In this document: positions 12,343-59,591 of the stretch, piece after piece
How the letters are laid out: every line of letters begins with the position of its first letter
Position numbering within the stretch: the first letter of the stretch is position 1
Assembly: GCA_947073645.1 (NCBI GenBank)
Contig: CAMTMK010000007.1
Coordinates: 1 to 64,000 of the forward strand
Direction of reading: 5' to 3'
Source: an uncultured bacterium
GTDB taxonomy: Bacteria; Cyanobacteriota; Vampirovibrionia; Gastranaerophilales; Gastranaerophilaceae
Length of the DNA: 64,000 nucleotides
Position numbers and translations under genes: made by a program
The notes under the pieces: generated by a model
What the model was told of the DNA's origin: nothing
Database searches by the model: none
What the model saw: the letters and a program-made list of their open reading frames with translations, nothing else

Positions 12343-12633
12343 ATGACAAACGGTAATTTTTTAGCAAAACTATTTTCAACTCTAGGCACCACAGCATTTG
12401 GTGTCGGCTTTATAGGTATGGCTTCCAAGGGAAACTGCGGATGCCACAATAACTTTAATTCTATATTTGGCGGAGGTTTTGGACACCCTGCTAATTTCAA
12501 CACATTTAATTACGATATAACAAACCCTTATGCGTTTTTAAACGCTAATATCACTCCTACAAATTCTGTAACACGTACAGGCTCTGCTAGTAATGTAAGA
12601 AAAACTCAGAGTGCCCCCCCCCCGAAAAGATGA
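12343..12633 (+). CDS. N-terminal segment of a putative phase-variable metallopeptidase
   Basis: A 96-residue ORF (an upstream in-frame TTG at 12316 would give 105). It has a hydrophobic N-terminal stretch (FLAKLFSTLGTTAFGVGFIG), then a Gly/Asn-rich region and APPPKR encoded by a C10 tract. It ends in TGA overlapping the ATG of the next ORF. One extra C (C11) would fuse it in frame to that ORF, giving a protein of about 390 residues. I therefore read it as the first half of a switchable or frameshifted gene. No ribosome site is obvious at either start; function of this part is unknown. Confidence 0.55.
   Translation: MTNGNFLAKLFSTLGTTAFGVGFIGMASKGNCGCHNNFNSIFGGGFGHPANFNTFNYDITNPYAFLNANITPTNSVTRTGSASNVRKTQSAPPPKR
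12614..12623 (+). repeat. Poly-C tract (C10) at a gene junction
   Basis: Ten consecutive C in AT-rich surroundings, at the 3' end of the ORF at 12343. Gain of one C fuses this ORF with the next. Such tracts slip at high rate during replication and are classical contingency elements. Confidence 0.9.
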
Positions 12634-13508
12634 CTACATTAAAAACAAACGTAGGTAAGGCACAAGAGTTTTTGCAAGAGCACTTAGCTAATCTTTCTGA
12701 TGCAGATTTGGAAAAGCTAGGCATATCTTCTGCTAAACGCGATAGATTGCTAAAATATATCGCAAATATAAAATATGAAGATAATCCATACGGTGCAGCT
12801 CGTGCTGACGGTGATTCTATAATTATAAACTCTAGTTGTGCTAATACTGATAATCTTGCAGATATGGTTACACTGTTAATGCATGAGGCTAATCATTGTG
12901 ACTACAACCAACTACATACAAATGGTGAAACTAAAGTCAGAATAGATACCAAAGAAGAAGAAGCTAATTGTGAAAGATTAGGCTTACTTACTTCTGCACT
13001 TCTTATAAAAAACGGCGAAATAACAGGCTGTGACAATTTTGGTCGTTATCCGGGAATTCCAAATGTACCCAAAACTCCAGTAACAGAATATTTAGATAAC
13101 CCAGAATTACTGGAACAACATTTAAACAAATGGCTTGATGTTTCTTATAGAAATATGTCTGATAATTTAAATGGTAATATTACAATTCAACACGGAATAC
13201 AAGTAAATGACGACACTAAAGTTGAAATACAATCAGGTGATGTTATAAAAATTGGAAATGATGAATTTACTATCGGACAAAATGGTACGTTTTTAGAAGG
13301 AATACAGCGCACTCCAATAATGCAATTTGTAAACGCTACAACAAACCCACCATCAAATTTAATTCAAGGAAATATTATATTTGATGACATAGTTCCAACA
13401 ACCGAAGAAAAACTGCAAGTAAATAAATCTAACATCACCCCAACCGCCCAAACCGTACAAGTTATCCGCAACGGAAAAGTCGTTTATACGGGAAAAGTTT
13501 ACAAATAA
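12630..13508 (+). CDS. Putative zinc metallopeptidase domain (HEANH), possibly C-terminal part of a split gene
   Basis: A 292-residue protein with VTLLMHEANHCDYN, an HEXXH zinc motif at residues 85-89, followed by KEEEANCERLG whose Glu residues could give the third ligand. This suggests a gluzincin-like peptidase, but no family is recognised. The C-terminal half contains a beta-rich stretch (DDTKVEIQSGDVIKIGNDEFTI) and ends with VIRNGKVVYTGKVYK. The ATG overlaps the preceding stop (ATGA) and has only GAAAAG before it, so separate translation would be weak. Fusion through a C11 tract is plausible. It may be secreted or surface exposed if fused to the hydrophobic N-terminus. Confidence 0.6.
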   Translation: MTTLKTNVGKAQEFLQEHLANLSDADLEKLGISSAKRDRLLKYIANIKYEDNPYGAARADGDSIIINSSCANTDNLADMVTLLMHEANHCDYNQLHTNGETKVRIDTKEEEANCERLGLLTSALLIKNGEITGCDNFGRYPGIPNVPKTPVTEYLDNPELLEQHLNKWLDVSYRNMSDNLNGNITIQHGIQVNDDTKVEIQSGDVIKIGNDEFTIGQNGTFLEGIQRTPIMQFVNATTNPPSNLIQGNIIFDDIVPTTEEKLQVNKSNITPTAQTVQVIRNGKVVYTGKVYK

Positions 13509-47240: not shown

Positions 47241-48054
47241 ATGAAAAAGCTTAAAATCCCCCCCCCCCAACGGTATCCGTTTAACCCAACATATCGGGTT
47301 TTGTAAAAATTTTAACGGTGGATTTACTTTAGCTGAGGTTTTAATCACATTAGGAATTATAGGTGTAGTTGCTTCGATAACTTTACCGTCATTAATTAAT
47401 AACTTTAAAAATCAACAATATGTAAATCAATTAAAAAAATCATATTCAGAGATTGGTAATATTTTCAAATTTATGATGGCAAAAGATGAAGTTGAAAGTT
47501 TAGATGAAACTGAATTTTTCAGCAGTTTTCCGGGAGAAACTCAAAATTCATCAGGAGTTCCTGAATACTTAGACACTGCACTGGGAAAATATTTTAACGT
47601 TTTAAAAACATGTCATAGAAACGATACAACTTGTAATTCGATTAAATATAAAAGCTTACACAATAACCCGCTAGAAAACGACATTAATGATTATAATTTC
47701 TACACAGCAGGCGGACAAATTATTTACATGGGTGAATTCAAGCGTTCCAGACTGCCTGAAGAATATAATAAAGATGCTCAATTAGCCGGCTGTCCTGCAA
47801 TAATAGGAGTTATTAGAATTGACGTAAACGGCGAAAAAGGCCCCAATAAATATGGCAGAGATTTATTTACATATCGATTATGCGTTAACGGAAAGCTCTT
47901 TGCTGAAGGCAGTAAAGAACTCTCAATGACAGCAGGAGAGAATTACACCAGCTACTGGTGGAAGACAAGCTATTCCTGCAGTGGTAATAATAAAGGTATA
48001 GGCCACGGCTGTGCCGGACGTGTTATGGAAAACGGTTGGAAAATGGATTATTAA
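47241..48054 (+). CDS. Type IV prepilin-like protein, frame-shifted by a poly-C tract (apparently phase-OFF)
   Basis: The gene starts at ATG 47241 (GAGG 8 nt upstream). A run of eleven C after codon 5 throws it out of frame, so only 21 codons are translated. With C10 it would read MKKLKIPPPNG, then NFNGGFTLAEVLITLGIIGVV and continue without a stop through the open frame ending at 48054. This gives a class III prepilin of about 270 residues, ending CAGRVMENGWKMDY. The mature part has Cys pairs and a Gly-Asn-rich C-terminus like the disrupted gene at 58867. The ATG at 47473 is not a credible start. Phase variation is the favoured reading; a sequencing or assembly error in the homopolymer is the alternative. 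Confidence 0.75.
47258..47268 (+). repeat. Poly-C tract (C11) inside a prepilin gene
   Basis: Eleven consecutive C directly after codon 5. C10 restores the full prepilin frame; C11 gives a stop after 21 codons. A homopolymer of this length in AT-rich DNA and at this position is the classical form of an on/off contingency switch. Confidence 0.92.
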
Positions 48055-50852: not shown

Positions 50853-53800
50853 ATGGACTTTTTCAATTCACTATCTCAAGTTGCCAAAAATAAAGACAAT
50901 TTTAAAAAATGGGAAGAAAATCAAAAAGACGAACAAGCCCGACGCGAGGAACTATACAAACGTCGTCAATATTCCGATGCAGAACTTGCAAAAGCTAAAG
51001 CATTAGGTGAAAACATTATTGACGTAGTTGATATAATGGATAATCACTCAGAAAGTGTTGCAGAAAACGTTGAAACTGCAACAGAGCCAATCGTTGCATT
51101 TGCTCCGTTTGCATCAATACTCGGCTCCAGCTATTTAATGGCTAAATTTGTCCACCAGCCCAATTCAAAGAAAATACATGCAATTCGAGAACAAATAGAA
51201 AATGATGAAACTGCAAAAGATTTATGCAGACGAATAAGCGAATTTAACCAGAAAAATGGCAAAAATATTTATTTTTCAGAATGGGAATTAACTCATAAAG
51301 ACAGTATTAAAAGAATTAAAAATTCTGAATTAAGAGCAGAAGCTATGAAATTTTATAATAAATTTCAAAAAGACACAGCAAAATTCAGAAAAGCACAAAA
51401 ATTCGGTTGGATAGGGGCTGCCGGACTCACTTTAGCTTCATTTATCGGTGCAAATATCTACGCTGCAAAGTTACAGGTTGACAGTTCAAAAATTGCCCGC
51501 TATCAAGCAAGAGAATCCTTAGAAGACCCGAAAGCATTTGTAAACTATACACCCGAACAAATTGCAAAAGCTAAAGAAGAAATTGCAAAACATCCTGAAT
51601 TATTAAAAGAAAAGAAAAAAGAAAAACTTAAAACAGGAATGTTTAAAAGTATTATAAACATTCTGAAAGATAGAAAAGCATATAAAGAATCCATTAAAAA
51701 TGATACAGACGAATCCAAAATCGTCACAAGAGAACTATCTCCCGAAGAATTAAAACGCGCAAAACAAGATCAGGAAGTAATTCAAAGAACAGTAAGACTA
51801 ATCAACAACGAAGCCGAAAAATACTCTCAAAATATGGAAGTAGCAGCAGAAGTTCTCGTTAACGGCACACCATTCTGGTGTGCTGCGGTTGGCGGAGCTT
51901 TAGGGTGGATTTTAAACAAAACCGGTGCAATTACAAAATTTGTAGATAAAAATATTGCTAAAAACGGTTCTGAAAAAACAAAAGAACTTTATGCAGATCT
52001 TAAAAAAGGGCAGGAAAGCGGTGCTACTTACCACCATAAATGGAACAAATTCAGAGAATCATTCCTGAATGATTTGCGTGGTATTGAAGAAAACGCTTCA
52101 CAAGATACCATAAGAGCCACAAAACGTAAACCAACAGACATTATAAAAAACACAAAAAGATGGTTTACATCAGTTCTTGCCCATCAAAAAGGCAGAAACT
52201 GGCTTGTAGCGGGCATTGGTTTTATAACAACAGGTATTGCAGGTATGATGATTGGTTTGAAACTTACCAAATCTGCATCAAGAGCCGGCAGATATACAGC
52301 AAAACGTGAACTTGAAAAAGACCCGAGAAACTTTATCGGATATACAGAAGAAGATTACAACGAAGTTTCTGATGTTAAAAACAAGAAAAAAGGTGTTTCA
52401 AAACTAAAAGAAACGGTGATGCTCCTTCCGACAGTTATGAAACAATACTTTGCTTACGAAAAATACAAAAAAACAGAATACAAAGAAAAACAAGTATTAA
52501 ACGAACTGCTCCACAAACAGGAAGTAACAGATGAACAGCTTAGAGAAGCTAAAAACTTACAACGCAAACTGTTTAATACATTCGAAAAAGTAGACGATAA
52601 TTCACAAACTTACTCAGAATCAATGGAAGCTGCGATTGATATCGCACAACCGTTTGTAGTCTATGGCGGGATCTTAACGGCAGCATCACCGTTTATCTGG
52701 GCAGGAGTTCAGATGAAACGCGGCAAACTTTCTGCTGCAAAAGTTTTGAATAAGGTTACAACATTCTTCAGTAAATCAAGTGAAAGATTAAAATCAAAAT
52801 GGTTTAAAAACTATCTTAAAAATGTAGCAAGCAACGTAGCACCTACAGTTCAAAAAACAAATGTTGAAAGCAAACCTGTTGCAAGAATTCTTCAAGGCGT
52901 TGATTTACAAAAAGACAGCATCCACACAATTTTTTCAAAAACTATTGCCAACTTAAAATCTACAACAGGCGACTTGAGAAACATGTCCGAACGCGAACAG
53001 CGAGAGGCAATATGGAAATTACGTGAAAGCATAGTTAGCACTGTAAGAACAAAAGATAAAGAATTAGCCGTAAAAATAGGTAAATTGTTTGACGGTCTTT
53101 TAGGCTGGACAGATAATCCTAATGTCAGAGCTGATGCTTTAGATATTATCCTAAATCCATCATCAATCAAAACAATGGGCAAAGAAAGATATGACGAAGC
53201 ATATCACTTCTTAAAACAAGCAATCAAAAACGGATTTGAACATCAAAAAGTAGAAAACTTCTACACTGGTATCCAAAATATGTTCCAAAAAGCCGATCCG
53301 CAAAAAATAAGAGGTTTATATGCTGAATTACGCACCATAAGCCCCGAAGCTGAAAAGGTACTGAAACCTGAAACAGTTGAAGATTTAATCAAAGGTTTGG
53401 AAAATATAAAAGGTGAAAAAACTAAAGATTTTATTGAATATGCTATTGATGAAACTTTATCTCACGAAAACGTTGTCAATATATTAGAAGCTATTAGTGC
53501 TGCAAAAACTAAACTAAAATCTATTCCAAACCTTGTTAATGAAAATCCGAAAGCAAAAGAAATGCTTGATGTATTAAATTCAATGGTTGAAATACCTCTA
53601 TCTCCAAAACAAATATCATCATTGAACAAGCTTGGAATTGCCCCCCCCCCGAATAACACTCTTAACCCAGAAACAATTCTTACACTATTTAAACAACAAA
53701 CAGCAAAAGCTAAAGGGTTGAAAATTAAAGAAGCATTTGAAATACTTCCTGAAAAAATGCGTGACCCGAAACAGGCACTAAGCTCATTCAAAGCCAAAAT

Positions 53801-58866: not shown

Positions 58867-59591
58867 TTAATAATCCATTTCCCAGCCGTTATCTTGCAAC
58901 ACCTTGAAACATGCTGCTGCATCTGCTCCCCACAAAGAACTTGCAGCCTGACATCTTACTAAATCTGCTTTTGATTCTGCCTCAGCTTTGTCCTTCTCGC
59001 ATGCTTCATCATCTTTTCCGCAAGTAATATCAGTATAAGCTTTTAATGAACCATCATTAAATAAACCTAATACGAACACATCTCTGCCTAAAATATTAGG
59101 GCCAGATTTACCATTTGTATCAAATGCAACATAAGTTAAAAAATTACCAGTCTTATCAAATGCAACAGAATAATAACAAATACCAGCGCCACTTGTTGTA
59201 ACATGACAAGTTATACCTGTACTGTAGTTAGCTGAATTACCTGAAAGGTTTTTTGTTTGAGACCCGCCAACACAGCTATCCATAGCTCCACCACCACCAG
59301 GATTACAAGTCTTAATAATTTTCATATGATTTTTTAACAGCCTATCTAAATCTTGGTAACCAGAAACACCTGCCTCACGTAAATTTATAGCATTTCGTTC
59401 TGCAATAGCAGATTCAGTTACTTGTTGAAACTCATTATAAACTTTATGTAATTGAGTTACATAAACTTTGCGCTGATGATTTTTTGTCAAGTAGGCAGCG
59501 TCATTGCTGAAACGACTCCAATAATACCAAGAGTAACTAAAACTTCCGCTAATGTAAATGCAAATCTTCCTAAACTATTTTTTATTTTCAT
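58867..59591 (-). pseudogene. Type IV prepilin-like gene with a single-base frameshift
   Basis: On the minus strand ATG (59591) follows a good GGAG site and reads MKIKNSLGRFAFTLAEVLVT, then LGIIGVVSAMTLPT, then TGA. A continuation LTKNHQRKVYVTQLHKVYNE exists in another frame and runs to 58867, giving a prepilin of about 240 residues. One extra T in CCTACTTGACA would join the two exactly where family members continue. The internal TTG overlapping the TGA is not a credible independent start. The mature part has Gly-rich and Cys-rich loops and ends QDNGWEMDY, like the prepilin at 47241 (ENGWKMDY). Assembly error or a real null allele are both possible. Confidence 0.75.

Follow-up and report, generated by a model that had tools for sequence, protein, structure and literature searches.

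A C10 tract in a putative metallopeptidase gene and its place in a polarised, prepilin-centred tract set of Gastranaerophilales

An interrupted gene with a C10 tract between two reading frames

We analysed a 64-kb stretch of DNA from an uncultured bacterium of the Gastranaerophilales (assembly GCA_947073645.1, contig CAMTMK010000007.1, positions 1 to 64,000), hereafter the window, in which a run of ten cytosines (C10) lies within a putative metallopeptidase gene that is split into two overlapping open reading frames (ORFs). The locus comprises the following features (aa, amino acids):

12343..12633, + strand: upstream, N-terminal half of the gene (96 aa in the assembly), which contains the hydrophobic stretch FLAKLFSTLGTTAFGVGFI; homologous to the N-terminus of the gene in genome G012
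12614..12623, + strand: C10 tract flanked by ACTCAGAGTG and GAAAAG; predicted to be OFF in the assembly, the gene being in frame with C11 or C8
12630..13508, + strand: downstream half, with a predicted zincin-fold domain (HEANH at ~12882-12896, then KEEEANCE) and a beta-rich C-terminal domain

The N-terminal ORF opens with ATG at 12343 and closes with TGA at 12631-12633, and the ATG of the downstream ORF at 12630 overlaps this stop (ATGA, 12630-12633). The first-pass annotation had described an N-terminal ORF and an overlapping ORF encoding HEANH with the C10 between them, and this arrangement was confirmed at the coordinates above; the tract, which had been placed 10 nt before the overlap, in fact ends 7 nt before the TGA. 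Since 271 nt of the peptidase gene lie upstream of the C10, the two halves share a frame when the tract length is 2 modulo 3. A tract of C11 or C8 gives a fused peptidase protein of ~388 aa, in agreement with the single protein of ~390 residues that had been predicted from one extra C. The annotation was also correct that the second ORF is almost devoid of a ribosome site of its own: the bases that precede it, CCCCCCGAAAAG, contain no usable Shine-Dalgarno (SD) sequence. Through the ATGA overlap, translation of the peptidase domain might still re-initiate at a low level when the tract is C10.

Homologues identify a single gene interrupted at two positions

Homologues in G032/L095, L096, L097 and G006/L098 run in one frame through the N-terminal extension, with neither stop nor tract. 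L095-L098 are contigs whose records are titled Gastranaerophilales or Melainabacteria, and genome copies of the homologue lie in G032 and G006, where the uninterrupted frames are open over 466 and 458 aa, respectively. The nearest homologue, in G012, is 58% identical to the window protein and has the same downstream neighbour. Both share an N-terminus (NGNFAK...GAFGVGLTGM against NGNFLAK...TAFGVGFIGM). The G012 gene is itself broken, by a G10 run located ~40 residues into the protein compared with ~90 in the window, and it too needs one additional base.

Because the distant homologues are single uninterrupted ORFs and the G012 copy is broken at another position, the two ORFs of the window are one gene, interrupted twice independently and still conserved. 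A tract has accordingly arisen twice in the same gene, at different positions and in the same phase, as poly-C in the window and as poly-G in G012. Despite the interruption the domain is intact and conserved, with non-synonymous divergence (dN) of ~0.33 and synonymous divergence (dS) saturated at ~1.7 over 277 aligned codons. Only 4 of the 33 species of the genus carry the gene.

The downstream half resembles a zincin-type metallopeptidase

HEANHCD is invariant in seven homologues, as are E110, E111 and E115 in the downstream KEEEANCE-like segment, so that an HEXXH motif on a helix is followed by a candidate third ligand (E110/E111/E115). In an AlphaFold2 model (mean predicted local distance difference test score 87) both motifs lie on neighbouring helices, H76-97 and H108-127, followed by a beta-rich domain. 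Foldseek returned selecase as its best match (E 0.031) and many HEXXH proteins at middling scores, while VIA-align gave a best Z of 7.6 (below 8; root-mean-square deviation 4.7 over 138 residues) and several HEXXH enzymes at Z 5-7. Pfam held no family above its cut-off for the peptidase, the best relevant match being DUF6782 (E 0.2), and a sequence search of the PDB with the peptidase ORF found no peptidase. The structural matches point to a likely zincin-type metallopeptidase without family assignment.

The best 19-residue hydropathy of the N-terminal segment, which is shared with G012, is a borderline 1.42, and the one uninterrupted homologue tested, G032, has no hydrophobic segment (0.2). 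Export or anchoring of the peptidase by a hydrophobic N-terminus is only a suggestion. The first-pass annotation proposed that the tract may toggle between a membrane-linked or exported peptidase and a short N-terminal peptide, and named homologues consistently encoded as two genes as a refutation. The distant homologues are instead uninterrupted, and a toggle would agree with a single gene that is in frame only at C11 or C8; the membrane or export role fared less well, given the borderline hydropathy and the lack of such a segment in G032.

C10 and G10 tracts are abundant and concentrate in prepilin leaders

Shuffles of the AT-rich window predict 0.07 C-octamers; 10 were found, in three tracts. 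The genome from which the window derives (G000; 1.71 Mb, 37 contigs) contains 67 C-runs of at least 8, 42 of them exactly C10. For 1.1 Mb of the close relative G010, a Markov model predicts 0.05 C10/G10 runs and 29 were seen: C/G runs dwindle as far as length 6, hardly occur at 7-9 (C7, C8 and C9 once each) and peak at 10, and A/T runs of at least 8 are depleted. Lengths from 8 to 13 occur. Tract counts range from 0 to 179 per genome in 33 genomes of the genus, and from 0 to 15 in other families of the order.

Of the 67 G000 tracts, 53 follow a start codon, which nearly always has a good SD sequence in front of it, and precede a prepilin mature start of the type GFTLAEVLITLGIIGVVAA. Profile searches identified ~73 type IV prepilin-like loci in G000, so about seven in ten bear a tract; these loci show, after the leader, the N_methyl (PF07963) signature, in which a methylation motif whose position +5 is Glu is joined by a hydrophobic helix. 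Within the FTLAE pattern F, L and E are invariant, the cleavage site has the form GFTLAEVLI, and the leaders, whose residue at -1 is Ala or Gly, are long. From the motif, leader cleavage by prepilin peptidase is predicted.

Start and mature frame of the tract-bearing prepilins join only at particular tract lengths, read modulo 3, and 43 of the ~53 leader tracts in G000 are out of frame as assembled. When G000, G026, G007 and G010 were pooled, 104 prepilins had a good SD sequence; the required length was 2 modulo 3 in 87, 1 in 14 and 0 in 3, counts that are not independent, the leaders being related by descent, and 88 of the 104 were OFF as assembled. The OFF prepilins do not look like dead genes: their downstream frames remain open over ~200-300 aa and comparison of G000 with G010 gave dN/dS of 0.11-0.30, indicative of purifying selection. 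Among 13 pairs of orthologous tracts from these two genomes, nine were 10/10 and four differed by one base (9/10, 11/10, 11/10 and 10/11).

Prepilin numbers across the genus range from 9 to >110 per genome. Tract-free prepilins, for instance in G022, have simple starts such as MKKGFTLAEV or MTKQFGFTLAEV. Leaders in L184-L192 (G022, G029) and in G000 contain in-frame palindrome-like repeat modules, such as HAELDSASQDKILKQVQNDVKDGK, SPQRGEGAFVGGAVQMRVRGS and KRSRLTRHIGFWKNF, so that repeats in general seem prone to settle in the prepilin leader. At L194 (G010:C9:2900-4100) and L092 (G000:C27), the leader ATGAAAAAGCTTAGAATTG-C10-GAAGGCTTCACT is letter-identical and the mature pilins share 68% aa identity, as if leader and tract were more conserved than the pilin.

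Tract-bearing genes other than prepilins comprise lineage-specific proteins and apparent glycan or surface genes, which resemble, by sequence, glycosyltransferases, TupA-like ATP-grasp proteins and (sugar) acyltransferases, kinds of gene known to vary elsewhere among bacteria. About half of the non-prepilin set is in frame at C10. The peptidase C10 is thus one member of a large, polarised, prepilin-centred tract set.

Tract orientation follows the replichore

Counted by coding strand, the leader tracts of G000 comprise 22 poly-C and 31 poly-G. Their orientation on the contigs is far more regular: 44 of 45 neighbouring tract pairs have poly-C on the same strand, though prepilin genes occupy both strands of several of these contigs. 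In G026 and G007 the tract strand flips at few places, and at the two flips sampled, ~240 kb along G026:C2 and ~310 kb along G007:C1, the third-position GC skew reverses its sign within the interval of the flip. Poly-C lies on the C-rich, lagging-sense strand and the G-run on the leading strand. Tract orientation hence follows the replichore, not gene direction. That the tracts keep one orientation relative to replication suggests that tract birth, spread or slippage is coupled to lagging-strand synthesis.

Leaders of the sister genus G033 (L154-L183) contain G8-G14 runs that are poly-G coding and lack replichore polarity, so the polarity is not general in the family. Their flanks form two conserved families, AGCGGAGAGCTTAG[C]TGGAGAAT and CTTAGATGTAGATA[C]GGTATTCC.

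Shared flanks and the origin of the tracts

Beyond the peptidase gene, the window contains these tract features:

47241..48054, + strand: second tract gene, prepilin-like, mature start GFTLAEVLITLGIIGVVAS at ~47320; leader interrupted, predicted OFF at C11
47258..47268, + strand: C11 tract in the prepilin leader; the G010 orthologue has C10
50853..54272, + strand: third tract gene, an ORF of 1139 aa; in frame at C10, predicted ON
53641..53650, + strand: C10 tract; the G010 orthologue (89% DNA identity) retains the 5' flank AAGCTTGGAATT and has AGACCTCCTGAA in place of G-C10-GAATAAC

On the - strand, 59389-59561 is a probable pilin pseudogene: the prepilin N-terminus there is degenerate, with three stops and one change of frame, and no poly-C of at least 8 lies nearby.

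Read in poly-C orientation, the tract flanks follow the consensus ~GCTYAGARTTG-C10-GAA/GAC in either coding orientation and in unrelated genes. We tested this with a matrix trained on poly-G-coding prepilins, using the flanks of short C-runs as background and leaving out the bases that touch the tract; it recognised poly-C-coding prepilins (P 2e-11) and non-prepilin genes (P 1e-4). Because the same DNA encodes different peptides in the two orientations, the motif is a property at the DNA level.

One clean comparison with and without a tract was available, the window tract at 53641 against G010/L062. There the 12-nt 5' flank resembles the motif and is ancestral or at least shared, which favours creation or copying of tracts at motif-like sites over insertion of a whole element. 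Plain insertion of the 25-bp whole motif is unsupported at 53641, its 5' flank being already present in G010. The reverse search, for G010 tracts missing from G000, gave no clean case, and a search for motif carriers among viral contigs gave no match. We put forward, as a tentative and rather doubtful proposal, that the C10 and its ~25-nt motif may form a copyable cassette, which would spread by short-homology template switching of lagging-strand nascent DNA, retain its orientation to replication regardless of the direction of the target gene and give genes for pilins and surface proteins a default-OFF frame switch.

Phase variation by tract slippage and its alternatives

We consider it likely that the tracts mediate translational phase variation by slippage, with OFF as the default state at C10. 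Slippage of the C/G run would alter tract length. The usual length is 10, at which the peptidase gene and roughly four-fifths of the tract-bearing prepilins are out of frame; adding one base (C11) or deleting two (C8) would link the start codon to the functional domain. In prepilins the run lies within a leader expected to be removed by prepilin peptidase, and the Pro3 or Gly3 that it encodes need not reach the mature protein. Cells would then express changing subsets of a large repertoire of pilins and surface proteins. Tract positions, phases and orientation, the flank motif, the intact and conserved downstream frames and the length differences between orthologues are read directly from the DNA; slippage within populations, switching, prepilin processing, a role at the cell surface and replication coupling as a cause are inferences.

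Several observations weigh against this interpretation. Tract lengths are unusually uniform (exactly C10 in 25 of 30 tracts in G026/G007 and in 29 of 36 in G010), and those of Campylobacter, 52% G9 and 30% G10, are looser (PMC6321876). Changes in length are deduced from comparisons between species only, and all genomes are draft assemblies, probably metagenome-assembled. C-runs of at least 8 number only 4 in G022 and 7 in G029, some of them at contig ends, yet each of these genomes has at least 100 prepilins, so large prepilin families are independent of tracts. Finally, MutS (MutS_I) and a MutL domain are present in nearly all genomes, so one-base slips should be partly repaired. The tight length distribution fits the presence of mismatch-repair genes, and their presence led us to reject loss of mismatch repair as a cause.

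Programmed slippage is the chief rival: at a fixed C10 or G10, a ribosomal -1 frameshift, or an RNA polymerase adding one base, would yield a constant small full-length output with the DNA unchanged. It would account for a length held tightly at 10 and for a shared shift of +1 nt, the equivalent of a -1 frameshift, which 87 of the 104 prepilins require, as do the peptidase gene and the homologue in G012. We nevertheless regard it as distinctly unlikely: lengths vary from 8 to 13, 4 of 13 orthologous pairs are one base apart, and slippage could only be harmful in the roughly half of non-prepilin genes whose frame is already intact at C10. Moreover, poly-C and poly-G coding strands are affected alike, and the common phase is explicable by the conserved descent of the leader families.

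Two further explanations have very little probability in our assessment. Homopolymers are error-prone and the assemblies are draft, so the true tract might be C11 with all genes intact; yet several non-prepilin genes in this assembly are in frame at C10, which makes systematic loss of one base unlikely and largely refutes one-base undercalling, and several assemblies made independently show the C10 class again, with C7-C9 nearly missing. It is just as hard to credit that the locus has no functional switch and consists of two separate genes, one for a short peptide and the other for a cytosolic peptidase coupled to it in translation. The ATGA overlap at 12630-12633 and the plausible ATG of the downstream ORF would suit such a pair, but the downstream ORF lacks an SD sequence, the G012 homologue is broken elsewhere and the tract is one of 67 in the genome; the distant homologues, single ORFs with the N-terminal extension in frame, led us to reject the arrangement.

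Significance and comparison with known systems

Gastranaerophilales, relatives of cyanobacteria that do not photosynthesise, are common in animal guts but largely uncultured, and their dealings with host immunity and phages are poorly understood. We found no earlier report linking Gastranaerophilales with phase variation in the open-licence literature. If phase variation by tract slippage is correct, dozens of pilins would carry C10 switches in their leaders, among the largest sets of homopolymer phase variation known to us, and the switch repertoire would be directly testable with existing deep metagenomes. The strict polarity, regardless of gene direction, offers a natural experiment on the birth, slippage and spread of G/C runs at the replication fork, where their behaviour is normally studied only with engineered constructs.

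In Neisseria, slippage likewise occurs in mononucleotide runs, variation is focused on type IV pili and mismatch repair is present. One main pilin is varied there by gene conversion and accessory genes are switched by tracts, whereas here ~50 separate prepilin genes each have their own leader tract. MutS and MutL are not known from Campylobacter; both are present here, where tract orientation is also set by the replichore and the flanks share a motif. In other respects the tracts are like the Campylobacter phasome, in which G/C runs of ~8-12 within reading frames switch genes ON or OFF by length modulo 3 and tens of tracts per small AT-rich genome lie in surface and glycan genes (PMC6321876). 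Poly-C coding accounts for 5% of Campylobacter ORF tracts, and C. jejuni has a median of 20 tracts (PMC6321876); here 22 of 53 prepilin tracts are poly-C coding, and a genome can have as many as 179 tracts. The survey by Orsi et al. 2010, on 5' homopolymeric tracts as a general means of gene inactivation, likewise describes runs near gene 5' ends and reversible frameshifts, but it concerns poly(A)/poly(T) (PMC2831843), whereas here A/T runs of at least 8 are depleted and only C10/G10 are over-represented. The tract anatomy, with slippage, ON/OFF states set by frame and, in the pilins, a run whose product should be lost on processing, is explained by known poly-G/C phase variation in Campylobacter and Neisseria. 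Orientation by replichore and the shared flank motif set the tracts apart from textbook poly-G phase variation, and the novel parts are the replication polarity and the spread of the tracts.
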